A stretch of 64,000 nt of DNA from Syntrophothermus lipocalidus DSM 12680. GTDB taxonomy: Bacteria; Bacillota; Syntrophomonadia; Syntrophomonadales; Syntrophothermaceae. The stretch's first letter is position 1; every line of letters begins with the position of its first letter. Position numbers and translations under genes: made by a program. The notes beneath the pieces were generated by a model. The model ran no database searches. It saw only the letters and a program-made list of their open reading frames with translations, and was not told the origin of the DNA. The stretch covers positions 2,294,001 through 2,358,000 of the forward strand of contig NC_014220.1 in NCBI RefSeq assembly GCF_000092405.1. The letters are read 5' to 3'. Below, piece by piece: positions 38,983 to 60,188 of the stretch.

Positions 38983-41320
<2,338 letters not shown>

Positions 41321-41331
41321 GGTTTTCCCTC

Positions 41332-41544
41332 CTATCTGACCTTCAATGCCCAGTATCCATCTCCCATATAACCAAACCGGTTATCGAGATTAATCTGGGT
41401 ATAAACGGCGGCCATGTTGCGCGGGTTGATCTCCCGGTTCATAAACTGTAATACAGTTTCCACCAGTTCTCGGTAATACACAGGACCTTCCCGGTTTCGC
41501 AAAACCTCGTAAGCCCAATCTGCCTCGCTTTTCTTAGCGGTCAA
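41332..41544 (-). CDS. rpoE: RNA polymerase delta subunit, short form (HARE-HTH only)
   Basis: The 70-residue protein matches the N-terminal folded domain of delta: ADWAYEVLRNREGPVYYREL, then INPRNMAAVYTQINLDNRF and GYWALK. B. subtilis delta has a further acidic tail of about 80-90 residues, which is absent here. The argS-rpoE-pyrG neighbourhood supports the identity. Without the tail it may bind polymerase but not displace RNA as full-length delta does. Confidence 0.82.
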   Translation of the reverse strand: MTAKKSEADWAYEVLRNREGPVYYRELVETVLQFMNREINPRNMAAVYTQINLDNRFGYMGDGYWALKVR

Positions 41545-41556
41545 AGCTAGTCCCCC

Positions 41557-43236
41557 CTACATCCTTTCCGGGGCCGAAACCCCCAAAACACCCAGAGAAT
41601 TCTTGACGACTCGCCTTATAGCTTCCATCAATACCATTCGAGCGTCTCTCAGATTCTCCTCCTCGTTCAGCACCCGGTGATGGTTATAATAGCTATGGAA
41701 CATCCCGGCCAAGTCCAGCACATAGCGGGCGATGCGGTGCGGGCTCAGGGTTGCTGCTGCCATTGATATCTCGTTAGGGAACTCAGCTACCTTGCGTAGC
41801 AATTCTAATTCCTCAGGTAGGCACAGAAGCCGCAGGTTAACTTCATCCGGATTCTTTAGAAGAATGCCAGCCCTCTCAGCTTGCCTCATAATGCTACAAA
41901 TGCGGGCATGCGCGTACTGGACGTAGTAAACCGGGTTCTCCTGGCTCTGCTTTTGAGCCAGTTCCATGTCGAAGTCCAGGTGGCTGTCTGGACTTCGCAT
42001 TACGAAAAAGAACCGGGCGGCGTCTTTCCCTACCTCTTCCAGCAGCTCGTCCAAGGTTACCAGAGTCCCCGTACGCTTAGACATCCGTACCAGTTCCCCT
42101 CCCCGGTACAACCTCACCAACTGCATCAGGATAACGTCTAACCGGTTCGGGTCATAGCCCAGGGCAGCGATAGCCGCTTTCATCCTCGCTACGTGCCCGT
42201 GGTGGTCTGCTCCCCACACGTTGATAACCCAGTCAAACCCTCGCTCAAACTTGTTCTTGTGGTAGGCTATGTCCGCAGCAAAATAAGTAGGAAGGCCATT
42301 TTTACGAATAACCACCTCGTCCTTTTCGCCAGAGTCTTCTCCTGCTCTAAACCACCAGGCCCCTTCCTTCAGGTACAAATACCCCTTAGTTTTCAATTCC
42401 TCAGTCACTTCTTCTATTTTACCAGAGTCGTGCAAACTCTGTTCACTGAACCAGACATCGTATCTTATACCGAAAGCCTCTAAAGAAGTTTTAATGCTTT
42501 CCAATTTCTCTTTCAGAGCAAATTCCGTGAGTTTCTGCCGTCTCTCGTATGGATTAGCCCCAACCAGATAGTCCCCGTATGCTTCTATGAAATGCCGAAC
42601 CGTCTCTACGACATCCTGTCCTTCGTATCCACCTTCCGGGAATCGGAATTCACATCCACACAACTCCAAATACCGCGCTTCCAAGGACAGTCCAAACAGC
42701 TCAATCTGGTTCCCGGCATCATTTACGTAATACTCCCTCTCTACTTCGTATCCCGCCATGGACAAAATATTAGCCAGGCTATCCCCGATAGCCCCCCCGC
42801 GGGCGTTGCCCATGTGAAGATCTCCGGTAGGGTTGGCGCTGACGAACTCTACTTGAACCTTCTTCCCTACTGGCTTATGTTGCCCGTAACTCTCGCCGCT
42901 TTGCCAAACCACTCTAGGCACATCGAATAGCCAGTCTTCTTTAAGGAAAAAATTTATAAATCCTGCCCCTTTAACCTCCACCCTTGATATAAGGGGATCA
43001 TTCTGGGGCAAGAGATCTATAATGGCCTGTCCTATCGCAACTGGGGACATGCGGGCCTGTCGAGCCAAGAGCATGGCTACATTACAGGCATAATCCCCGT
43101 GCTGTTTTTCGCGCGGAACTTCAATAACAAAGGCCGGTATCTCTTGGTAGTTAAATTTGCCTCCGGTTTTCGCTTTTTCGAGTGCTGTCACGATCTTCTG
43201 CCTCAGATCATCCTGAATCTTCTTTACCAAATCCAT
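41557..43236 (-). CDS. argS: Arginyl-tRNA synthetase
   Basis: The 559-residue class I synthetase has the HIGH-type motif [18 protein letters not shown], an Arg-tRNA-type N-terminal domain, the KMSK-type [15 protein letters not shown], and a helical anticodon-binding C-terminus. It charges tRNA-Arg. The gene sits 59 nt after the cysteine-rich unknown, and no terminator or T-box is seen in the gap, so it may be co-transcribed with the surface operon. Confidence 0.97.
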
Positions 43237-43295: not shown

Positions 43296-43772
43296 TTATT
43301 TCCCAGAATCCTCTGGGTAAACCCTGCCCCGGCATACCCCTTCGTTGTCGATTTCGTCAGTCACCATCAGATAAGGTTGCCCCGTCTTGACGGCGATTAT
43401 CCATTTAATGCTGGTCATACGCGGGCATACGAACAGGGTACCTTCCCTTTTGGCCTGTCGGCAGTACTCCCGGTATGCACAAGTGCCGTTTGTGATGTAA
43501 ACGTTTATTACACCATCTTCTTGTACAAATCGATAGTGGCTTTCTTTGAGAAACCCTTGTTTGCCCAACACCCTAACCCAAGCTTGCGCGTAGTCCGTCG
43601 CCTGATTCCCCCGGCTGTAATAGTCGCGCTCGAACTCGTAGTAAACCCGGCGAGATAAGCTCTCAATCACCCGCTCCAGCCACTGCTGCCCATCCGGCAA
43701 CTCCGCAATTACTTCGCTAATGGCCAGGAAGAGCTTGTTGACCAAAGTATACATGAAAGCGAGGTTTTCCAC
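43296..43772 (-). CDS. Cysteine-containing conserved-type protein, unknown
   Basis: I do not recognise this 158-residue protein with certainty. The N-terminal half is helical. The C-terminal half has three or four cysteines in the pattern CAYREYC...FVCPRM, followed by SIKWIIAVKTGQPYLMV, which recalls V4R-type small-molecule or metal-binding domains. I choose the GTG at 43772 because AGGGGGT lies 6 nt upstream; the formal frame starts 9 nt earlier. It follows the M1-type peptidase gene without a gap and precedes argS. There is no signal peptide, so it is cytoplasmic. Confidence 0.7.
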   Translation of the reverse strand: MENLAFMYTLVNKLFLAISEVIAELPDGQQWLERVIESLSRRVYYEFERDYYSRGNQATDYAQAWVRVLGKQGFLKESHYRFVQEDGVINVYITNGTCAYREYCRQAKREGTLFVCPRMTSIKWIIAVKTGQPYLMVTDEIDNEGVCRGRVYPEDSGK

Positions 43773-43773
43773 A

Positions 43774-45297
43774 CTAATCACCCCCTGTTTTGACTTTCAC
43801 CACAGGGGCGGCTTTTTCCTGCCAGTCTCGAAACCACTGCGAGAAATACCGGGTCATGTCTTTTCCTGTCTCGTTCTGCACGGCTCTCAGAACATCTTCG
43901 CTGGTAGCAATTCCGTACCTGTTTTCGGCCAAATACCTTCGTAAGACCCCGACGACTTTGTCCGTCCCTATCTCCCCTTCCAACCCATTCCAGAAAGCCT
44001 CGCCTCCCCGGTAAGCAGAGTACAGGTAATCGCTTCTGGATCTCATTTCCGTCAGGGAACGGGAAAGGTCCGCTGCTTTGATTCCCGCAGATTGCTCGCT
44101 GCCGGTTTGCTTTCCTGTCCTCCTTAGACAAAGCCCTGCCGACCAATTGGCCAGGCCCTCGTCCAGCCAAGGCTCCCGCGATTGATCATTTCCAACAAGC
44201 CCAAACCACCATTGATGAGCAATCTCGTGAGCCAACAGGAACTCGCGTCTGCTCGGGGAATACGCTTTTGACAACACTTGATCTTGTAAAAAAATGACCC
44301 CTGAATACTCCATGCCCTGAAAACCGTCCATCGGCACTTGTATGATATCCAGTTCCTCATAAGGATAAGACCCAAATGTGCAGGCATAATACTCGAGTAT
44401 CTTCTCTGCTTCACTCAAAACCTGCACTCCCGTGTCTTCGTACCCCGGATTTACATACACTCTGATCGGAATATTCATGGCCTTAGTGTCCAACTGCTGG
44501 TGACGCCAGGTTGCCGCGATTACAAAATCGCGGGCTCGGCTGGCCTCAATAAGAACCGTGTCCCTTCCTTCAGCTCCCGCTTCTCTCGCCAGCACATGAC
44601 CGGTTGAAACCACCTGATACTCCGACGGAAGGTTCAACTTCACCAGGTAGTCTGCACAAGCAAAACAGAACGGATCCCCCAAAGGGGTCTCCTCGGCAAA
44701 CCGCCATTCCCCTCCCTTTCTAACAGTGAGAACCGGGTAGAAGTTGCTCAACATGAACACCCCATCCCAGGCACCGAAGCGGTAGGCTGCTTGCGGTATT
44801 TTAACCTTCCACGCCATCTCGATCTTTACGGGTTGCCCGGGAGACAGGGCCTCTTCAAGCGTGAGTTTCAACTTCGTGCCCTGAACTTCATAGGAAGCAG
44901 GGATACCATCAGTCTTTACCTCGGTGACCCTTATATACCCGGGATCAAACCCGTTTTTGTATGCCGATGGGGGCGCAGGTGAAGAGGCTTTTTCCTCGAA
45001 AGCATTAGGATACAAGGTGAAGTACATCTCCGAAAGGGGGCCGTCCAGGTTGTTTTCGGTTTCGATAACACTAGTTCCATATAGTGTCAGTGTTGACACG
45101 TCCAGATAAAGGCCCATGTTGTAACGTGTTTCCTCGGTAGGAGGAAAAGTGTCGCCTCCTCGGCCGAATGCGTCTCCGTTTCCCCCTTTTAGCAGGCCTA
45201 CGGCGTGATAAAGCCAATACTTCCAAACAAAAACAGCGGCACCCGTTATAAGCAGCACCGCGAGTATCATCAGGTAAAACCGCTTGTTTCGCACCAT
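43774..45297 (-). CDS. Membrane-anchored M1-type metallopeptidase
   Basis: The 507-residue protein has one N-terminal membrane helix (7-27) and the gluzincin zinc site HEIAHQWW (His357, Glu358, His361) with Glu380 in WLDEGLANW, the exact HExxH-18-E spacing of M1 aminopeptidases. The family GAMEN motif is replaced by GMEYSG (329-334), so exopeptidase specificity may differ. A beta-rich domain precedes the catalytic domain. It lies downstream of two SLH genes and could process surface proteins. Confidence 0.87.
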   Translation of the reverse strand: MVRNKRFYLMILAVLLITGAAVFVWKYWLYHAVGLLKGGNGDAFGRGGDTFPPTEETRYNMGLYLDVSTLTLYGTSVIETENNLDGPLSEMYFTLYPNAFEEKASSPAPPSAYKNGFDPGYIRVTEVKTDGIPASYEVQGTKLKLTLEEALSPGQPVKIEMAWKVKIPQAAYRFGAWDGVFMLSNFYPVLTVRKGGEWRFAEETPLGDPFCFACADYLVKLNLPSEYQVVSTGHVLAREAGAEGRDTVLIEASRARDFVIAATWRHQQLDTKAMNIPIRVYVNPGYEDTGVQVLSEAEKILEYYACTFGSYPYEELDIIQVPMDGFQGMEYSGVIFLQDQVLSKAYSPSRREFLLAHEIAHQWWFGLVGNDQSREPWLDEGLANWSAGLCLRRTGKQTGSEQSAGIKAADLSRSLTEMRSRSDYLYSAYRGGEAFWNGLEGEIGTDKVVGVLRRYLAENRYGIATSEDVLRAVQNETGKDMTRYFSQWFRDWQEKAAPVVKVKTGGD

Positions 45298-45323
45298 GTT
45301 GCCCCCACTCTCGTCCGGTTGTT

Positions 45324-46850
45324 TCAGCTGCGAGAGAATTCGTAGAGCCTGTCCCGGTAATCCTTGGAAAAATCGCGGTTCAGAAATTCCCTAAACCGGT
45401 CTAACATGGCTGCCATCTCTGCCCTGGTCACGATATCGTTGGGCCTGAAAAAGTTGGCTCCTGCCGCGGTTTCCCCGCCGATTATGCCGTATTCCTGCGC
45501 CACATAAACCGATTCTTTGGCCCAGAGCGGTATCAGCGCATCATCATAGAACCCGGTTGAGGTCTCGGGTCCTGGAGACAGGTTTTCTAGCCCCATGGCT
45601 TTTACCAGTAGCACAGCCGCTTCGGCCCTGGTTATATTATCGTTCAGCCCGAATATTTTGCCGTCTACGAGCCCCTTCTCGCCCGCAATCTGCACATACT
45701 TGAAGTAGGGGCTGCTGGAGTCAACATCATAGAAAAGCGGAGTTGTTGCCTGGTTTTTCGTTCTTCGAGTGCTTTTGGCCGTATTCTCTTCGCTGGCAGA
45801 GGTCATCCCTGCCACTGTGACCAAGGCTCTGATGAAATCTCCCCGACGGGCGGGAAGGTTTGGGTAGAAATAGGCGTTCTCCCCGTCTATAGCCCCCAGA
45901 CCGCAAAGTGACTCCACTGCTTCTTTTGCCCAGTGGCCCCGTAGGTCCTTAAATTCCTTGATGAACAGCCGCTTCTGCTGGGCCGGAGAGGCTGAAGACA
46001 GTTCCAGGGTACCTTCGTTTCTCCGGTCGTCATCAATCCCCTCGCTCCCAGTGGACGGAAGGTCGTACTCAACCGTCATCACTTGTTGGGTGCGCGTCTC
46101 GTCAACGAAGCCTCCGTCAAAGCTCGAAAGTTCTGCCCCCTGGCTTACGTAGGCGAGGGAACGAGAGAGGGTATCGTTCATGGTTATGCGGGCTGAACCC
46201 TCCCAGCTATCTCCATCAGAAGGTTCTCCCTTGACCGATACATCTATAATGCGGGTATCTCCTTTCCCCCAAGCATTTGAGTACCCTTCGCTTTTCCCCG
46301 CAGACTCTACCGTGATTTGGTTCTTGCTGCCCCTTCCGGTTACATACACCTTTTTCATATACCAGTTCCCGGCCCAAAAATCAACCGCCGGCCGGTGGTC
46401 GATAGCCTGCGATCCTGAAAAGTAAAGCTTATCTTTATCCAATTTGTAGGTCGTCTTCCCCAGCGTGAGGCTTTCCGTATACCCGTCCAGGCTCATAACC
46501 TGGACCTCCTGGGCACCGCTACGTTGTACATTATACGTCAGTTTTACGTTGCGGGTCAGTTTTCCGTCTCCCCCGACTTGAACCAGCTTATAGGTAAGGG
46601 TGACCTGCCGACTGTCGCCCCGATCTCGACTGGTCTCCTTGACCGTTCCCTTGAATACCTGCGGAGTGCCAGCTACAAAAACTACTTCCTGGTATTCCTG
46701 CCCATCCGACACCCCGGGATCAAAACCGGTGAAGGCCAGACCCGCTCCTGCTGTACTGAGCACCATTGTCCCAGCTAAAAAAACCGCCAACACCGTTGCA
46801 AAGACACGCTTTCCCAGACTATTCCACCAGAATGGCTGCAGCATAGACAT
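45324..46850 (-). CDS. S-layer homology (SLH) protein with N-terminal beta domain
   Basis: The 508-residue secreted protein has a signal peptide (about 1-39), an unrecognised beta-rich region (about 45-290) and three C-terminal SLH modules starting with FKDLRGHWAKEAVESL, then YFKYVQIAGEKGLVDGK, then WAKESVYVAQEYGIIGG. SLH triplets bind pyruvylated secondary wall polymers. Its start overlaps the preceding SLH gene by 32 nt, with GGAGGGG as ribosome site. The N-terminal region has repeated VTLTYK/VKLTYN-like strands. Function is probably structural. Confidence 0.85.
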   Translation of the reverse strand: MSMLQPFWWNSLGKRVFATVLAVFLAGTMVLSTAGAGLAFTGFDPGVSDGQEYQEVVFVAGTPQVFKGTVKETSRDRGDSRQVTLTYKLVQVGGDGKLTRNVKLTYNVQRSGAQEVQVMSLDGYTESLTLGKTTYKLDKDKLYFSGSQAIDHRPAVDFWAGNWYMKKVYVTGRGSKNQITVESAGKSEGYSNAWGKGDTRIIDVSVKGEPSDGDSWEGSARITMNDTLSRSLAYVSQGAELSSFDGGFVDETRTQQVMTVEYDLPSTGSEGIDDDRRNEGTLELSSASPAQQKRLFIKEFKDLRGHWAKEAVESLCGLGAIDGENAYFYPNLPARRGDFIRALVTVAGMTSASEENTAKSTRRTKNQATTPLFYDVDSSSPYFKYVQIAGEKGLVDGKIFGLNDNITRAEAAVLLVKAMGLENLSPGPETSTGFYDDALIPLWAKESVYVAQEYGIIGGETAAGANFFRPNDIVTRAEMAAMLDRFREFLNRDFSKDYRDRLYEFSRS

Positions 46851-49296
46851 CCCTTTCCCCTCCTACCGACGCCCGTAGCAAGTAGACCGCATCCTTCGTA
46901 GCCAGTTTGGAAGCCGAGCCGCCTTGCCCTTTTTTCACGACTAAAGCATACTTCGTTTTCACCGTAAGATTATCGCTCTGGGCCACCCATTTCTCTGTGA
47001 AACCAGACCAGTTGGTCACGCTGCCGATGGTTATCGAACCAGAGTCGAGCGAAGTCACGGCGCCTTTTGTGATAATCTCATTTGAGAACTCTATCCCGTC
47101 TGCAACAAGTAAGGCTAATATCCGGTCTCCTTCCGCTATAAAGAGAATATCGTCTTCTTCGAGGTCCTCGTCGAGATTGTAGAACTCTTCGGCGTTCAGC
47201 TCCCGCACGGAAGACGACGTGGCAAGGACAATATAGGTCAAGGCATCGTAATAGTACTCGCGGTTGCTTCCCACGTAATCCCATTCGTTGTTCTCCAAGC
47301 AGTCGAGTGAGTCGATTTGAATCGAGCTCCGCGAAAGGACCTCATCCAGAACTCCTTTGCCGATTGTATAGCGGGCTTCCTCCGTTCCCTCGATCACAAT
47401 GACCCTCGCTAATACAGAAGAGTTGTCTTTCCGTTCGGCCAGTACAGTCACCATATCCCCTGCCTGTACCATATCCGGATCCACCAAGCGGTTGTCTTCA
47501 ACTGCTATGGTTGACTGGTCGTATTGGATCAAGGCCGGCTCATACTTTACGGTCATGCAATCACGGTAAGCATCTAGCTCCTCGACCTTCCCGTTTATCC
47601 GACGCTCGGAATCGCCTCTTACTACCAGCCGGACGATACGTTCTTCTCCTCCTTCGATGGAAGTAACGACAAAAGCATACCTGCCGCGATAAGCTTCAAG
47701 CTGGGCTGCGCTCAGCCGGTTGCTGCTGGCGAAGAGTTCGGCGCCGCTAGCCAGTTTCAAAGTCTTGGCTGCTGACGTTTCCTTTACCAGGTCGCCGTTT
47801 TCATACCGGTAGATATCCGTGAAACGTACGGTACTAAAAGCAGCTTTCACTTCGTCCAAATAACCGCGGTAAACCGCCAGGTCTCCTGCATCCTTGCGAA
47901 CATCTACCCGGATCACATTGCCCTGACTATCAACTGTGAGCTTTAGATAGTCCCCGGTCTTGAGGGAATAGTAGGTGCTGACTACGCCGCCAACATAGTA
48001 GTCGGTCTCGCTTGTCAAGGAATAGGTATAAGGATTCCCGTTCTCATCCCGGATGCTGATCTCGCCTGCCGTTTTGGTAAAGAGCGTTCCGTAAACAACC
48101 CGCGTCCCGTTCACTTCACCGCTTGTCAGCGAATCCGGCAGGTCACCTCTTATCTCCGATACCTGGGAACCGCTAACCAGCATAACCACGGGCTGGCCTG
48201 GAACAAGGTCGTTCATCCTCGCCGGATACCCGCTAAGGCTGATCTTACATAAAGGACTTACTGCCAGTTCATAGCTTTTCCCGTCACTCGCGGTCGCCCG
48301 TACGATCCTTTTAACGCTATCCACATAATCCAGGTAGCCACTGACGGATGCTTCGGCTACCTGCCTTTTTTCTATATAAGCAACCAGGTTCTGCGGTGTC
48401 ACCAGAACACTTACCTGATCCCCGCTCGTCAACAGACCCGAAAGACCTGTTTTCCCAGATGTTCGGTCATACACGAATACCTCTTTGTCACTTCCTGCAA
48501 TCACGTAGAAGCTCAGCCCGTCGTTCTGGGCGACCTGAACATATGTATCTGCACTGTCGGCCTGACCGCCGCTCGAAACCCTGACCACCGTTCCGGAAAG
48601 CTCCTTGTATCCCTGTCCGGCCAGGATTATACGGCTGGCCTTGTCCAGGGCGGCAGCCAGTTCTCCCCGCCTTATGCTCGCTTGCGGATAGAACATCCCT
48701 GCATCCCTTCCGCTCATTATCCCTAATTTGACCACGGTTGCGCAGTAGGGGATACGCTCGGAGCTGAACCTTGCCCAATCCTGAAAAGAGTAAACCGGGT
48801 GCTGTTCGGAATCGTATACAGGAGCAAGCCCACTCATCCGGGCTATCCAGTAGGCTACTTCTTCCCTGGTGGCAGGGGCCTGCCAGTTGGCGCTTGCCCT
48901 TTCGGCCGGGGTTACGATGCCCATGTTTTGAGCAAGTCGGGTGTAGTTGGCTCCCCAAGGAGTTCGATAGCTGGCCATTTCCCCAGGTCCAACCGCCAGC
49001 TTCTGGGCTTCGCCTTCTTTTCCGGCCAGCCTCACAACCATTCCCAAGGCCTCTTCTTTGGTCGCATATGCCTCAGGGCGAAAGTCCGGCCCACTACTCC
49101 TCAATACCCCTAGCGCAGCCAGGCGGTAAATTGAGCTACGAGCCCAATGAGAAGCCACATCGGCAAAAGACAGATGGGAAATATCTGTTCCTGCCCCTAG
49201 CCTCCCGTAGTAGACATCCGCTGCCTCCGCCTTCAAGGGAAATACCAGGAACAGCATCAATATCAGAGTTATCCAACTAATCAAAAGTCGCTTCAC
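46819..49296 (-). CDS. Large SLH surface protein with repeated beta modules
   Basis: The 825-residue protein has a signal peptide (1-25), three N-terminal SLH modules (about 43-92, 105-155, 168-222) and about 600 residues of repeated small beta modules of the type SGTVVRV...SGDQVSVLV. No catalytic motif is visible. Placement of SLH modules at the N-terminus, opposite to its neighbour, is seen in many S-layer proteins. It starts 12 nt after the TIG protein gene, with CCTT-rich sequence between, so the two are one transcript. Confidence 0.85.
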   Translation of the reverse strand: MKRLLISWITLILMLFLVFPLKAEAADVYYGRLGAGTDISHLSFADVASHWARSSIYRLAALGVLRSSGPDFRPEAYATKEEALGMVVRLAGKEGEAQKLAVGPGEMASYRTPWGANYTRLAQNMGIVTPAERASANWQAPATREEVAYWIARMSGLAPVYDSEQHPVYSFQDWARFSSERIPYCATVVKLGIMSGRDAGMFYPQASIRRGELAAALDKASRIILAGQGYKELSGTVVRVSSGGQADSADTYVQVAQNDGLSFYVIAGSDKEVFVYDRTSGKTGLSGLLTSGDQVSVLVTPQNLVAYIEKRQVAEASVSGYLDYVDSVKRIVRATASDGKSYELAVSPLCKISLSGYPARMNDLVPGQPVVMLVSGSQVSEIRGDLPDSLTSGEVNGTRVVYGTLFTKTAGEISIRDENGNPYTYSLTSETDYYVGGVVSTYYSLKTGDYLKLTVDSQGNVIRVDVRKDAGDLAVYRGYLDEVKAAFSTVRFTDIYRYENGDLVKETSAAKTLKLASGAELFASSNRLSAAQLEAYRGRYAFVVTSIEGGEERIVRLVVRGDSERRINGKVEELDAYRDCMTVKYEPALIQYDQSTIAVEDNRLVDPDMVQAGDMVTVLAERKDNSSVLARVIVIEGTEEARYTIGKGVLDEVLSRSSIQIDSLDCLENNEWDYVGSNREYYYDALTYIVLATSSSVRELNAEEFYNLDEDLEEDDILFIAEGDRILALLVADGIEFSNEIITKGAVTSLDSGSITIGSVTNWSGFTEKWVAQSDNLTVKTKYALVVKKGQGGSASKLATKDAVYLLRASVGGERDVYAAAILVE

Positions 49297-49308
49297 TTTT
49301 CTCAGCCC

Positions 49309-52300
49309 TTACCCAAAAATGATGAAAAGGTTCGGCTGCGGCACCCGCACTTCTATCCTGCCGGTTAGGCTGCTTGCCACATCCGTGCAGTTCACCCACT
49401 CGAGACGCGGGTACGAGTAATACTCCGCCCGCGTCGGGCGACCGACCCCGCCTTCCACCTGCCAGACCACCCGCAGGCTGCCTGCCAGGGTTGAGGCCTG
49501 AACTTTCCTGGTTTTGGCCTCGAATCCGATCTCGACGGCGAACCCATCAAGAGGTCTCGAACCTGACCGATTGGCCTTAACCGATTCCAAAACCGCCGTA
49601 CTTGTGGGATAGATGTAGATGAAGGCGTAACCTTCTCCCGTTCGGCTCCAAAAGTCCTGCATTTCCGATGTCTTTAATACTTTCAGAGGTACGGACAGGT
49701 TTATCCTGTCCCCGTTAATCCTCAGAGTTACATCAGGGTTCGTTCTAACCCCGACCAAGGGGATCATCAGCCGCAGCCGTTTTAGGGCTGCCTGCTCAGA
49801 GTCTAAGGTGACGTCGTAGTAGCTGCTTGACCAGGACGAAATCTCGTCCCCCACGATTATAACCAGGTCATCTTTCTCCCGGCTGATCCTAGTTGTGTTC
49901 TGTAATATTTCGGCCGTTTGTGGGCGGTTCTCGACATCATCGTCGGAAACGTAAATGGGATTCGATTTGCAAGCGATGAAATCGGAACAGCCGTACTGGT
50001 TGAAGGTCCTCATCCAGAAATAATAGCGCTTGCCGGGCTCGATGTCCTCGAACACGAACTCGGTTTTGTCAGTAGAAACCAGGAACTGTTTGGAGTTGGT
50101 GCTGGAACGGGTGTTTACATATATCTCGTAACTACTCGGCACCGAACTCGCCGACCAGAAAAGCTTGATAGCGCGCCGGTTCCACAATTCCCCGTCGAAA
50201 TCCGACGGCGGAGGAGCTACCGTTTCCTCGAAAGTAAAACCGTTGGCCTTCAGGGCCTCGCCGTAGTCGGGAGCTGGGTTGCGCACCGACACGTCCACGG
50301 ACCCCTTGGCATGTGAGGGAGTCACTACCGTAAGCTGGTCGTACCGGTCATAAGTTACTGAAGCCGCTTCCAACGTTCCGAAGAATACCCTGCATCCGGT
50401 GCGGAAGTTGTCTCCCTTTATTACTACAATCGTACCTCCCAGGGTTGTTCCGTGATCTGGGGTAATGCTGGTTATCGTTGGCTGCAGCTCAGGAGATACG
50501 TAGGTGAACCCTGACGGTTTTACCGCCGTCCCCTGGTCGGCTGTGTTGATTACCGATACATCCACCGCTGCCGTGGTCTGGTTGGCAGGCATGCTGTAAG
50601 CCGGAGTACGCACCACCAGTCTGTTTTCAGACTTTTCGATAATGGTAGCTTGGCCGGTCCCAAAGTATACCTCGACCTGATCCCGGAAGTTGGTACCGGT
50701 TATAGTCACGTTGGTGCCACCGTTAGCGCTCCCCTGAGATGGCTCGATTGAGCTTATCGTCGGCTCTACTACCGGTGATACATACTCTACCGTGCAGTCC
50801 GCCTGTCCCCCGTCCGGGTTACGGACCCGCAGTACCCGTTTTCCTATGAACTGGCCTGTGCTCAAAGGAGGAATTACTACCCTTATACGGGACGCATCCA
50901 GGACTTCGATGTTCGGGTATTCCGCCCCGTCGATAGTCGTCTTGCCGGTAGGAGTTACATCGGCGAGCGAAGTGAATGTCTGCCCGGTGGCATCGCTCAA
51001 AAGAACATCGCTACCGGCCCACTTTACCCCCTCCGCTTCAGATGGAACCACAAAACCGCTACCCGTGATCGTCGCCAGGCTAGGCCTGCTCTTTGGAAAC
51101 TTAGACGGGTTCACACTGCTGATGGTGGGTTTGCTCACTTCGAAGGTGAAGCCCTTCTTCAGCGTATAGGTCCCGGTATCGGGATTGGTAATGGTTACGT
51201 CGACCGCCCCGCCCCCTGAATATAGCGGGGTTATTACCTTCAGTTGGGTACCCTGGCTCTTGGATAGAGTATCGTCCTTGACCACAGTTGCCTCTATTCC
51301 TCCGAAGGTTACCACGGGCCAATCCGTAATTACATTGTTCTCATCTCTGTTCACCCTGAAATCACGCCCGCGAATTATTACTTCCTGAGTTCCGGCCGCT
51401 GGTCCTTTATTAGGCTGAACTGCGGTTATGACCGGGCTGCTGGAAGGCGTAACATAGGTGAACGCCCCCAACGCACGAGCAGTTCCCCCGTCTGGGTTGA
51501 CGATCATGATGTCTGCCGGTCCTGGGGTCTGCCCTGCAGGAAGAGCAGGCGTCTTGGCCCGGACCCGACACTTGCTCCAAATCCCAGCCCCGCTGTCGAA
51601 ATGTACCAATTCGAGCTTTACTTCGCTGGCTAACTGGGTTCCTACATAAAGCTCGAGCCCTTCCCTAAAATCAGCCCCCTCTACCACTATGTCAGTACCG
51701 CCGTATACTGAGCCCCGCTCGGGATTAACCGCCTTTTGGTCCCCATCTATATCCTCGATAGTCGGGTTACTGGTAGGAAGCTGATACACAAACGGCTTAG
51801 CAGCGATGGCTTGGGCCGTATCCGGATTAATCACCTTGATGGCGTACTCGCCAGGAGAGGGCAGTTCCGGAACGATGAACTCGATAAGTTCAGGACTCTT
51901 TACATACACTGCCCCCATTACCTGCTGGTCGCTATTCCACGATGTAACAGCTGTCAAAAGCTGGTCCCCAAGAAATACCCTTGTTTCGGCTCCGACAACA
52001 AAGTCAGCCCCTTCAACCACAACTTTTGTCCCTTTCGTGCCGTGCGTCGGCGCAAACCTGTTTATAGTCGGGTTGGTGTAAACCGCGTGGTACCTGAACC
52101 CTTGAGCAACAGTCGCAACCCCTATACCGTTGGCGGAAACGTTTATCACCTGCACCGGCACCCAAACGTCGCTCCGCGTACCCGGGGGGGTGTGACAGGT
52201 GATGGTCTGCCCTGCCTGGCTTACCGTAATCGCACTGGCCAACTGCCCGTCAAAGGTTACTAGAGCCCCGTCTCTGAAGTTGCTGCCGTTTATAGTTACA

Positions 52301-54984
52301 ACTTCCCCCCCCTGGATGTTCCCTTCATTCGGGGTTATAGTGTTGATCCTGGGGGCCAGCTGGGTGCTGGATTCAAGGTATTGGAACTTGTTCTGCCACA
52401 GAGCTATCCCGCCATCCGGGTTGATGACCCAAAAGTCCTGTTCTTTCGGCTCTCCCGGCGGTACCTCCAGGTATATGCGGTTGCCATTCGCACGGTCGTA
52501 GGGGGCAAGCTCTACCGCGTCCCGCATTACCCTGATTTCGAGTTCATCAAAGAAGGTAACGTTTTCACCAGGAAAAAGGCTATCGATAAGGTCGGTATAG
52601 AAGCGCTGGTTTTCTGTCTCGTCCTCGTAAACGTGACCTATTACCACATTATTTCCGATTTTCACCGCCGACCCGTACATAAAGTCTTTGCCTTCAACAG
52701 TCACAAAAACCCCGCCGGCAGGAGAGCTCACCGCCGGGCTGACTTTAGTAATCGTGGGGCTGCTGATGTATTCAAAGCCCTCCTCGAGAACATCTTCGCC
52801 ACCATCCCAATTCACAACCCGCACGTCTACCCTCTCTCTCTTAGCATGGGCAGGTGCAAGTACGGAAACCTTTGCCTTCGGCCTCCCGTCCTCAACACCT
52901 CCGGGAACAATGTCTACTACGGTCCCCTTCGTTTCCCCGAAAAAGACGCTGAGCCCCTGGTAAAGGTCGAAGCCTTCAATCTCCACCTGGGTTCCGCCCG
53001 CAGTCGGGCCTTTGGTAGGTGTAATGCTCGTTATCTCTGGCACGCTTTTAACTCGCTGGTAGGTATAAGATTTTGACAAGACAGCCCTTTCAGCTACTGC
53101 CGGATCCTCGGGGATGACCAGCCGCTGCCCGCCGGTAAACATCTCTTCCGTTACGGTGACCACTACGTCCACCGTTTCCCCTAGGACCAAGGGATCAAGG
53201 TAGTGAGCGTTGGTGGTACCTTCCAAATACTGCACCCTCTGCCCGTCAGCCTGTATGAGCTCGGTGACCTTGGTTATCTTTACTGGCGTACCGCCGATCG
53301 TGACCGAGATGGTGCGGTAAACAACTACGTCAGTATATTCCAAATAGCTGTTCATCTTTTCGGTTATTACAAGGTTATTGTCCGAGGCCGGTTCAAACCC
53401 TGAAATGACGTAGGGGTTCGAGTTGTAGTCGGCCGAAATAAGTCGGCCGTTAGCATAGCGGAGGGAAGTAACAGGGTCGCTCGAACGGAAGCGGAAAAAG
53501 CTCCTTCCAGTCAGGGTCACGGTCTGCCCGCCTTCCTCGGGTCCACTGATCGGCATAATAGCAGTAAGCCGTAAAGCTTGGCCCTGGGTACTGTAATAAA
53601 AGCCGTTGGTCAGGGTGTCTTTGACGATGTCCGGTAGGTTTTTGTCTCGAACGGTCACGTCCACAGGTCCGGTATAATAGCCGTTGTTAGGCGAGCGCGG
53701 GGTTGAAACCTTAAGAACAACCGCATCTTCAGGGTATCCGGCTGGAAGCTCCTCGCTGGAAAGCAGCCTGGGGTTCGCGCCTAAACCTTCCCATTTGGGG
53801 TTCGCCGATGAAAATAACACCTCGGTGTCGGTATTGAACCCCCGCCCGATAACCATGATCTCGGTACCCCCCGCAGGAGTACCCACATTGGGAACTACCC
53901 CGAGTATCTCGAGCTCTCCTGGGGTCGGGAGAATGTTCACCGCTCCTGCATATATGGCCCCAGATTTTACCTTCCCTGTAGCCGGGTCCTTTATCTTAAA
54001 ACGCAGGTCATGCTGGGTTTTGTCCGCGGAACTAGGGACAGTGACTACTATCTTTTTGCCCATCCCCACCTGCTCCACTGTCTTAACAGTCGCCTCGCCA
54101 CCTGCGATTATGACAACGTTGTTAGCAGGAGTGCTTTCGAAATTCGAACCGGTAATCGCAATATCGATGCCCCTTATTAGAGCTGACGGGCTCGGATTAA
54201 AGCTGGTAGCCTCGGGGATACCGATGTTGGAGAGCCGCATTTCGCCCTGGGCGCCCTCGTAAGCATTAGAAAGCCCTCCGGCCGTGCTTTCCGCGGTAAA
54301 AATCAGGTCGTTGTTCTCCATAAGCGAATTCCAGGCAACGTATATGGCCCCCTCGCTGTCCCAGGAGATACCGCCCGCATAACCTGGTTCCTTTTTGTCT
54401 TCGTCGAGGTTACTGTATAAAATGGAATTGCCGCTCACAGCCGCACTTACCCTTATCTTCGATACCTTCTTCAAATAAGCCCCTTCAACCGCTACCCTCT
54501 TGACTGTAGACTGTATGATTGGCCTTCCATTCTGGTCAAACCCGCTCACTGTGATAAGGCTGTAGGGGTAAACGTTAGTAATAAAGGGATCATGGACATA
54601 GGTGAGCTTCTTCTGGGTATAGGTATAGGTGCGACCGTCGTTGGTTGTGATGGTAACTGCGAGTACCTGCTCCGTTTCCTTAGTCCCAAGAGTATAATAA
54701 GGAGCCCTCACGGTTATCTGGGTATCTGACCAGGTCTGAATGCGGTAAACGTTCATGGATACGGTATTGAACTCGAAGGTCACCTGGCAATCATTGCCGA
54801 AAGCGCCGAAGCCCGAGCCGTCGATTATTACTAAGGAACCGCCCGTAACGTCACTGGTTCCGTTGGCGTTTTTAATATCAGTCACGCTTATAGTGCTGGC
54901 TGCAAAGAGCGAACTAGGGAACAGCAATGACAGAAAAAACGTGATCAGTATAAAAAAAGCCCCTACCCGTCTCATTAGTTTCAT
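49309..54984 (-). CDS. Giant secreted protein with about 14 TIG/IPT domains and a fibronectin-type domain
   Basis: The 1891-residue protein has a signal peptide (about 1-28) and roughly 14 Ig-like TIG/IPT units from about residue 30 to 1590, each with the pattern I-x-P-x-x-G-x-x-x-GG-x-x-V-x-I-x-G-x-x-F (for example TITSITPDHGTTLGGTIVVI). A fibronectin type III-like domain follows (about 1595-1680, YEIYVNT...GKRYYFWMRTFNQYG), then a unique 210-residue C-terminal domain. It has no SLH or sortase signal. It is the first gene of the surface operon; the ATG has AAGGGGAG upstream. It may form fibres or an adhesive layer held by the SLH partners. Confidence 0.9.
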   Translation of the reverse strand: MKLMRRVGAFFILITFFLSLLFPSSLFAASTISVTDIKNANGTSDVTGGSLVIIDGSGFGAFGNDCQVTFEFNTVSMNVYRIQTWSDTQITVRAPYYTLGTKETEQVLAVTITTNDGRTYTYTQKKLTYVHDPFITNVYPYSLITVSGFDQNGRPIIQSTVKRVAVEGAYLKKVSKIRVSAAVSGNSILYSNLDEDKKEPGYAGGISWDSEGAIYVAWNSLMENNDLIFTAESTAGGLSNAYEGAQGEMRLSNIGIPEATSFNPSPSALIRGIDIAITGSNFESTPANNVVIIAGGEATVKTVEQVGMGKKIVVTVPSSADKTQHDLRFKIKDPATGKVKSGAIYAGAVNILPTPGELEILGVVPNVGTPAGGTEIMVIGRGFNTDTEVLFSSANPKWEGLGANPRLLSSEELPAGYPEDAVVLKVSTPRSPNNGYYTGPVDVTVRDKNLPDIVKDTLTNGFYYSTQGQALRLTAIMPISGPEEGGQTVTLTGRSFFRFRSSDPVTSLRYANGRLISADYNSNPYVISGFEPASDNNLVITEKMNSYLEYTDVVVYRTISVTIGGTPVKITKVTELIQADGQRVQYLEGTTNAHYLDPLVLGETVDVVVTVTEEMFTGGQRLVIPEDPAVAERAVLSKSYTYQRVKSVPEITSITPTKGPTAGGTQVEIEGFDLYQGLSVFFGETKGTVVDIVPGGVEDGRPKAKVSVLAPAHAKRERVDVRVVNWDGGEDVLEEGFEYISSPTITKVSPAVSSPAGGVFVTVEGKDFMYGSAVKIGNNVVIGHVYEDETENQRFYTDLIDSLFPGENVTFFDELEIRVMRDAVELAPYDRANGNRIYLEVPPGEPKEQDFWVINPDGGIALWQNKFQYLESSTQLAPRINTITPNEGNIQGGEVVTINGSNFRDGALVTFDGQLASAITVSQAGQTITCHTPPGTRSDVWVPVQVINVSANGIGVATVAQGFRYHAVYTNPTINRFAPTHGTKGTKVVVEGADFVVGAETRVFLGDQLLTAVTSWNSDQQVMGAVYVKSPELIEFIVPELPSPGEYAIKVINPDTAQAIAAKPFVYQLPTSNPTIEDIDGDQKAVNPERGSVYGGTDIVVEGADFREGLELYVGTQLASEVKLELVHFDSGAGIWSKCRVRAKTPALPAGQTPGPADIMIVNPDGGTARALGAFTYVTPSSSPVITAVQPNKGPAAGTQEVIIRGRDFRVNRDENNVITDWPVVTFGGIEATVVKDDTLSKSQGTQLKVITPLYSGGGAVDVTITNPDTGTYTLKKGFTFEVSKPTISSVNPSKFPKSRPSLATITGSGFVVPSEAEGVKWAGSDVLLSDATGQTFTSLADVTPTGKTTIDGAEYPNIEVLDASRIRVVIPPLSTGQFIGKRVLRVRNPDGGQADCTVEYVSPVVEPTISSIEPSQGSANGGTNVTITGTNFRDQVEVYFGTGQATIIEKSENRLVVRTPAYSMPANQTTAAVDVSVINTADQGTAVKPSGFTYVSPELQPTITSITPDHGTTLGGTIVVIKGDNFRTGCRVFFGTLEAASVTYDRYDQLTVVTPSHAKGSVDVSVRNPAPDYGEALKANGFTFEETVAPPPSDFDGELWNRRAIKLFWSASSVPSSYEIYVNTRSSTNSKQFLVSTDKTEFVFEDIEPGKRYYFWMRTFNQYGCSDFIACKSNPIYVSDDDVENRPQTAEILQNTTRISREKDDLVIIVGDEISSWSSSYYDVTLDSEQAALKRLRLMIPLVGVRTNPDVTLRINGDRINLSVPLKVLKTSEMQDFWSRTGEGYAFIYIYPTSTAVLESVKANRSGSRPLDGFAVEIGFEAKTRKVQASTLAGSLRVVWQVEGGVGRPTRAEYYSYPRLEWVNCTDVASSLTGRIEVRVPQPNLFIIFG

Positions 54985-59324: not shown

Positions 59325-60188
59325 TCACCCTAAGTTATGATCCAGGCGAAAGTACACTTCTCGGGCAAACTGATTAAAATCCATCCCTGTTCCCTTTTTG
59401 ATAGCTTCTTCGAAACTGCAACCATCTCCTAAGGCCTTCATTACCTGCAGCAATCCCTCTTTTCCTGCCTTATCAACTATGCACTCAACCGCCACCAAGG
59501 ATTGCCAATAAGCTAGTCTCTGATCCAGACTGTCAAAGTCGTTCTCCAAAAGCTCAAACTCATAGTACCGAAGCTGGCGATCAGGAGAAGGCTCGGCAAA
59601 TGAAAACCCCGTGACTCTTCGTTCTACGTACTGAGCTACTCCTTCCGTAAACCAGCGATTGTAGTTACCCTTGGTGATGTTATCTACCAGCAGGTGGGTT
59701 AACTCATGGGCCATCGGTCCTTCCCGTTTAAAGACGTCCTCTGTATCTCGGGTGCTGATCCATTCTCCCGGAGAAAGTATCCGAATAGTCCCTGCCCAGT
59801 ACACCCCCATTGCCTGTTCATCCCTGTCCCAACCGAAGCTTGCCGCCAAGCTTTCCCCGTCTGGATAAACCACTACAACCGTCTTGTCCCCAGGATAGTA
59901 ACCAAAAAACTCGGTAACTGGGCCATATACCTCTTCGGCGTTATCTGCAACCATCTGCACGTACGGCTTATCCTTTTGTATGAATTTTATCACAAAATGG
60001 CCGGTCTCCATGGTACTAAAGTTTCGGGTTTGGACATTAGCCTTAACCCCCTCTAGATAACGCCAAACCTTGTATATCCCATGAGTTGAAAAAGCAGGCC
60101 ATTCCCACAGTTGTACAAAAAAAAGCGCCGAACAGGCAAGTAGCAAACCTACTGCCAGACGGGCAAACCATATCCCCTTCCCCAACAA
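59325..60188 (-). CDS. Membrane-anchored MA-type metallopeptidase
   Basis: The 287-residue protein has one N-terminal hydrophobic helix (9-29) and the zinc site HELTHLL (His161, Glu162, His165) with Glu182 in FTEGVAQYVERR, fitting the peptidase MA-like family (gluzincin fold). The region before it (VYGPVTEFFGYYPG, VVVVYPDGESL) also matches these proteins. It faces outward and may act on envelope proteins. The stop lies 14 nt before the murA2 start, so the two are co-transcribed. Confidence 0.83.
   Translation of the reverse strand: MLGKGIWFARLAVGLLLACSALFFVQLWEWPAFSTHGIYKVWRYLEGVKANVQTRNFSTMETGHFVIKFIQKDKPYVQMVADNAEEVYGPVTEFFGYYPGDKTVVVVYPDGESLAASFGWDRDEQAMGVYWAGTIRILSPGEWISTRDTEDVFKREGPMAHELTHLLVDNITKGNYNRWFTEGVAQYVERRVTGFSFAEPSPDRQLRYYEFELLENDFDSLDQRLAYWQSLVAVECIVDKAGKEGLLQVMKALGDGCSFEEAIKKGTGMDFNQFAREVYFRLDHNLG

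Follow-up and report, generated by a model that had tools for sequence, protein, structure and literature searches.

A conserved predicted surface module of Bacillota that sets an anchorless giant TIG protein beside two partner proteins, P2 and P3

In cellulosomes, SLH anchoring scaffoldins are SLH proteins that hold a large, anchorless surface protein via another domain. Among proteins with TIG domains, the nearest studied one is CmoA of Paenibacillus sp. NAIST15-1, which is secreted, is 1,064 amino acids (aa) long with eight TIG domains and a vWFA domain, and is encoded in a flagellar operon (PMC5072692). A sequence-only reading of a locus in Syntrophothermus lipocalidus had proposed a five-gene surface module that includes a giant TIG protein and two SLH proteins, and knew of no named system composed in this way; our literature search turned up no work naming the set of TIG, P2 and P3 described here.

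We analyzed a window of 64,000 nucleotides of S. lipocalidus (contig NC_014220.1, positions 2,294,001 to 2,358,000); coordinates given below without a locus name are those of this window. The genome is a single contig of 2,405,559 bp, and 2,405,559 bp is the published genome size for strain TGB-C1 (PMC3035303). The features of the locus are as follows.

49309..54984, minus strand: giant TIG protein, 1891 aa, signal peptide (ORF, Pfam)
Giant, aa 45-1585: 12-13 TIG domains (Pfam and our own HMM)
Giant, aa 1592-1665: weak fn3 (21.8 bits against a gathering score of 25)
Giant, aa ~1666-1891: C-terminal domain, no family match
46819..49296, minus strand: P2, 825 aa, signal peptide (ORF, Pfam, AlphaFold)
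P2, aa ~38-227: N-terminal SLH triplet (Pfam finds two SLH; the AlphaFold model aligns with a triplet)
P2, aa 231-825: core, about seven small OB-like beta-barrel domains in a row (AlphaFold, Foldseek)
45324..46850, minus strand: P3, 508 aa, signal peptide (ORF, Pfam, AlphaFold)
P3, DNA 45978-46721: N-domain, 250 aa, beta-rich, without known family
P3, aa ~297-495: C-terminal SLH triplet (three SLH by Pfam)
43774..45297, minus strand: M1-type metallopeptidase, membrane-anchored, 507 aa; a neighbor, not a dedicated part
43296..43781, minus strand: 161-aa protein without signal peptide; a neighbor, not a part
41557..43236, minus strand: argS, the housekeeping gene to which the M1 gene and that of the 161-aa protein are linked

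The five genes from TIG to the 161-aa protein lie on one strand and are tightly spaced, as had been claimed, the successive gaps being +12, -32, +26 and -8 nt. Scans for promoters and terminators scored no higher here than shuffles, so the case for an operon rests on how closely the genes are spaced and on their conservation. The G+C content is 0.525-0.545 across the module (44001-54000) versus ~0.49-0.51 on both flanks, which could fit a later arrival at the locus. Long ORFs on the plus strand (for example, 41114-41371) overlap most genes of the region; from their appearance we took them for mechanical antisense frames and did not count them as genes. Farther along the window, next to murA, the minus strand of 59325-60188 encodes a 287-aa protein that has a HELTH motif and whose N-terminus is signal-like, apparently a peptidase of the gluzincin type; another locus, L214, has a relative, also beside murA.

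Pfam resolves the TIG region of the giant into 13 stretches (E 7.5e-113), and an HMM built in this analysis counts 12 domains; the array seen in the sequence-only reading holds, while its size, put there at about 14, should be 12-13. Likewise, a fibronectin-type domain had been proposed, and an fn3 match does occur, but below the gathering score. Two further claims agree with our searches: neither SLH nor any other anchor family is found in the 1891 residues, and the C-terminal domain, described as unique, is matched above cut-off by none of the Pfam and NCBIfam families. This domain differs strongly from family to family. Pfam detects no vWFA in the giant, and the TIG repeats match NCBIfam NF058597 (choice-of-anchor Z repeat).

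The SLH assignments of P2 and P3 score 55.5 and 69.3 bits, respectively, against a Pfam gathering cut-off of 20.8, and in both proteins the triplet fold is predicted by structural models. The AlphaFold model of P2 (mac07585fe70b; mean pLDDT 85.6) aligns with the SLH triplet of Bacillus anthracis Sap (3pyw) at TM 0.69, and Foldseek matches it to SLH structures (3pyw/6cwn) and to strings of OB-folds; at its pTM of 0.44, single beads are visible, their mutual arrangement is not. The P3 model (m3072252565de; mean pLDDT 87.3) has ~12 long beta strands and an SLH triplet that Foldseek aligns with 3pyw at TM 0.84. Against PDB structures, the SLH part of P3 alone was significant and the N-domain had no significant match, nor did a profile of the N-domain match any PDB sequence; no Pfam or NCBIfam family was found above cut-off for this domain or for the P2 core. 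The genome also encodes the ketal-pyruvyl transferase CsaB (TIGR03609, 291.5 bits against a cut-off of 213.1).

The TIG-P2-P3 order reappears in many lineages of the phylum, far beyond close relatives. With a profile of the P3 N-domain we found relatives among which 80 named loci were retained, and, in a sample of 398 genomes of the phylum, relatives in 77. When the P2 core served as profile for the same 398 genomes, strong matches came from exactly these 77; weak matches, which cover shorter stretches and occur in 207 genomes at E up to 0.001, were excluded from the count by score. P2 lies directly upstream of P3 in 76 of the 77 genomes, and in the last the pair is divided between contigs. 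The pair is usually single-copy and is present in about one in five of the sampled Bacillota genomes. We read 66 phylum loci, 60 of them with at least 1.4 kb of sequence upstream of P2, and in 55 of these 60 a giant TIG gene immediately precedes P2, the complete TIG proteins being mostly 1,750-2,330 aa long. The five loci without it comprise three of a family designated f85, where P2 is ~1,010 aa long and P2-P3 occur without TIG, as well as L228 and L251; the latter is a second copy in its genome, whose other copy (L259) has TIG. Such a recurrence is not chance, and the scattering of homologues that the earlier reading had set as its refutation is not what we find for these three genes, which reside side by side in the same genomes.

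The named set agrees. P2 adjoins P3 at 78 of the 80 loci, the remaining two being broken by contig ends, and TIG is directly upstream of P2 at 43 of the 44 loci from Clostridia that extend at least 1.5 kb upstream, and at none of the 27 Bacilli loci. At the single clostridial exception, L083, a draft sequence of the same genome as L039, TIG consists of three consecutive ORFs of 1082, 423 and 362 aa, none of which was counted; either sequencing errors or a broken gene would account for the split. Among the loci read, none showed TIG fused to P2 or P3; long open frames in G058 and G055 that resembled TIG-P2 fusions were rejected, each being two separate ORFs. Other genes surround the pair in Bacilli: many loci have a gene of 750-990 aa in the place after P2-P3, the one in Sporosarcina (L144, 11329-13851) encodes a surface protein with SLH, Ig-like and VWA domains, and in Paenibacillus alkalitolerans (L105, 6981-8093) the gene ahead of P2 resembles, by eye, TagO, the first enzyme of wall-polymer synthesis.

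Within the order Syntrophomonadales, where 61 genomes were searched with P2 and 20 loci were read, TIG, P2 and P3 occur in the same order at all 20 loci. Most of these continue from the module into M1 and then argS-MBL-pyrG, some stop at contig ends, and one (L046) has the module without M1. Two forms of P2 are found: in families f1 and f2 it is ~825 aa long with N-terminal SLH (type A), and in family f3 it is ~560 aa long without SLH (type B). The earlier observation that P2 and P3 carry their SLH triplets at opposite ends consequently holds for the lineage of S. lipocalidus and not for type B. Several f3 loci have a second TIG-like protein, UP (up to 961 aa), ahead of TIG; it is anchorless as well, and its C-terminus bears a modest similarity to that of TIG (hhalign P 2e-6, probability ~90%). 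Many f3 genomes, including L210, which we take to be Syntrophomonas wolfei, have no P3 at all; in the order as a whole, the P3 domain was found in 26 of 63 genomes and M1 in 43 of 61.

In a P3 tree of 109 rows, types A and B split almost cleanly (SH-aLRT 97), with types assigned by P2 length (>700 aa being A), a rule that may mislabel rows such as L128. The tree requires 3 changes of P2 type, compared to a mean of 36 after shuffling, which indicates that P2 and P3 travel as a unit. Families f1 and f2 carry a different type from f3 of the same order, in the same slot ahead of argS, and pyrG is close downstream in several type B families too. The window TIG protein matches type A giants of other families (645 bits for L198, 556 for L184) better than those of f3 (~85-133 bits). 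Replacement in place and old tandem copies would both explain the presence of different types at the argS slot.

We consider it fairly probable that TIG, P2 and P3 form an SLH-anchored surface fiber or outer-layer system, in which TIG is held by P2 and/or P3. All three proteins carry signal peptides and would be secreted. P3 would bind the pyruvylated secondary cell-wall polymer via its C-terminal SLH triplet and display its 250-aa beta N-domain, and P2 would form a rod of OB-like beads, with an N-terminal SLH triplet of its own in this lineage. The anchorless giant would be kept at the wall by one or both of them, most likely via its C-terminal domain, and would extend as a long exposed fiber or form an outer layer. 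An S. lipocalidus strain has been described with an electron-dense outermost wall (PMC3035303), and the module is a candidate for this layer. Against this reading stand Bacilli and family f85, which have P2-P3 without TIG, indicating a role of the pair that does not depend on the giant. The main S-layer subunit could also be any one of the other SLH proteins that the genome encodes.

The original proposal went further, taking all five genes as one operon that exports, anchors and trims a surface structure. Its description of a membrane-bound zinc peptidase was accurate: the protein matches Pfam Peptidase_M1 (68.5 bits, cut-off 27.7), has the active-site motif HEIAH with a Glu 18 residues on (HExxH-(18)-E, aa 357-380), and is membrane-anchored. 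M1 enzymes are typically aminopeptidases; this one has QGMEY at the place of the expected GAMEN (GxMEN exopeptidase motif). That it would trim or mature surface proteins as part of the operon seems very unlikely, even though the spacing in S. lipocalidus is tight and M1 adjoins the module at most loci of the Syntrophomonadales, as it does in one family that lies outside this order. In four relatives (L210-L213) M1 is close ahead of argS without TIG, P2 or P3, and, conversely, M1 is missing from the module of G016 and from most module loci outside the order. The 161-aa protein, introduced as a Cys-rich member, has four Cys only, which are kept in relatives, and no evident signal peptide, and at the module locus it is limited to family f1. 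It has no significant match in PDB or Pfam, V4R included; its relatives in family f30 are ~340 aa long, reside upstream of argS without the module, and have a V4R match that falls just short of the gathering score and covers the half missing from the 161-aa protein. The 161-aa protein is related to the N-half of V4R-domain proteins. In f30 the V4R-domain protein is encoded close upstream of argS in L214 (6814-9210) and L217 (5936-6955); in L214 a PAS-histidine kinase lies between this gene and argS, and the two look like a sensor pair. As M1 and the relatives of the 161-aa protein occur beside argS without the module, both genes go with argS, and we rejected the five-gene operon with dedicated peptidase and Cys protein. 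What survives of the proposal is a conserved predicted surface module of three genes; we found no evidence for trimming.

Three other readings concern the module itself. It is conceivable, though we hold it only tentatively, that P2-P3 is a platform or assembly pair bound to the wall polymer, with its own envelope function and an exchangeable large partner, TIG in Clostridia and something else in several Bacilli. The pair is the invariant part, Bacilli and f85 do without TIG, and the SLH and VWA protein encoded next downstream in Sporosarcina would suit such a partner; yet the clostridial TIG is almost always there, directly upstream, and our domain scan of the downstream Bacilli proteins covered one protein. 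This reading is compatible with the SLH-anchored fiber or layer. We find it unlikely that the giant is the main S-layer lattice protein with P2-P3 as lattice anchors: its size, its repeats, its broad conservation and the electron-dense outermost wall described for the strain (PMC3035303) make it a candidate, but it bears no SLH or other known wall anchor, and other SLH proteins are encoded alongside it in the genome. Comparison with two other species also speaks against this role. The genome that we take to be Caldicellulosiruptor bescii has P2-P3 at 2.483-2.487 Mb without TIG, and the presumed S. wolfei genome lacks the module. An ABC-2 transporter lies at 2.490 Mb in the former, and Athe_2347 is a transporter of this class. 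Athe_2303 is reported as the abundant S-layer protein of C. bescii (PMC6500515); by its gene number, it is probably not the P2-P3 locus. For S. wolfei, another protein has been suggested as the S-layer protein (PMC5101538). Finally, P3 joins SLH to ~12 long beta strands, and porins are among its insignificant Foldseek matches, as if it were akin to, or left over from, an OmpM-like tether of the outer membrane, in which a beta-barrel is combined with SLH. We rejected this idea as highly improbable: Omp85 and LpxC are both missing from the S. lipocalidus genome, while control genomes gave matches, the strands of P3 are rich in charge and do not show the alternating hydrophobicity that membrane barrels have, and the porin matches have an rmsd of 11-30 Å.

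The proposed SLH-anchored module of TIG, P2 and P3 names specific proteins that may make up the outermost wall, so far undefined, of syntrophic Clostridia, and it offers an example, open to experiment, of a giant surface protein that would rely on partner proteins for its anchor. The P3 N-domain, the P2 core and the TIG C-terminal domain are without family in Pfam and NCBIfam above cut-off, although about one-fifth of the sampled Bacillota genomes have the P2-P3 pair, in Clostridia nearly always behind a giant TIG protein. As a speculation to which we give limited credence, the module might be an unrecognised ancient envelope apparatus of Bacillota that constructs, on a split-anchor plan, the outermost layer of the wall in many clostridial lineages, with two anciently diverged versions of it sharing one chromosomal position ahead of argS-pyrG in families of a single order.

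Compared with known systems, the module resembles surface proteins of the Sap/SpaA type in its SLH triplets of solved fold and in the presence of CsaB, and differs from them in that a giant without an anchor is accompanied by two distinct smaller proteins, which carry the anchors. The many tandem TIG domains and the absence of SLH liken the giant, a predicted secreted protein, to CmoA, which was found around cells; the giant has no vWFA, and no P2-P3 partners are described for CmoA. Unlike cellulosome scaffoldins, the module has no cohesin or dockerin, neither being among the Pfam matches of the window proteins. NF058597, which the TIG repeats of the giant match, is a repeat model only and is silent on P2 and P3. 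P3 is like the OmpM tether of diderm Firmicutes (PMC10628300) in combining SLH with a beta-rich domain, but this domain is soluble-looking, the SLH is at the other end, and the host is without outer-membrane markers.
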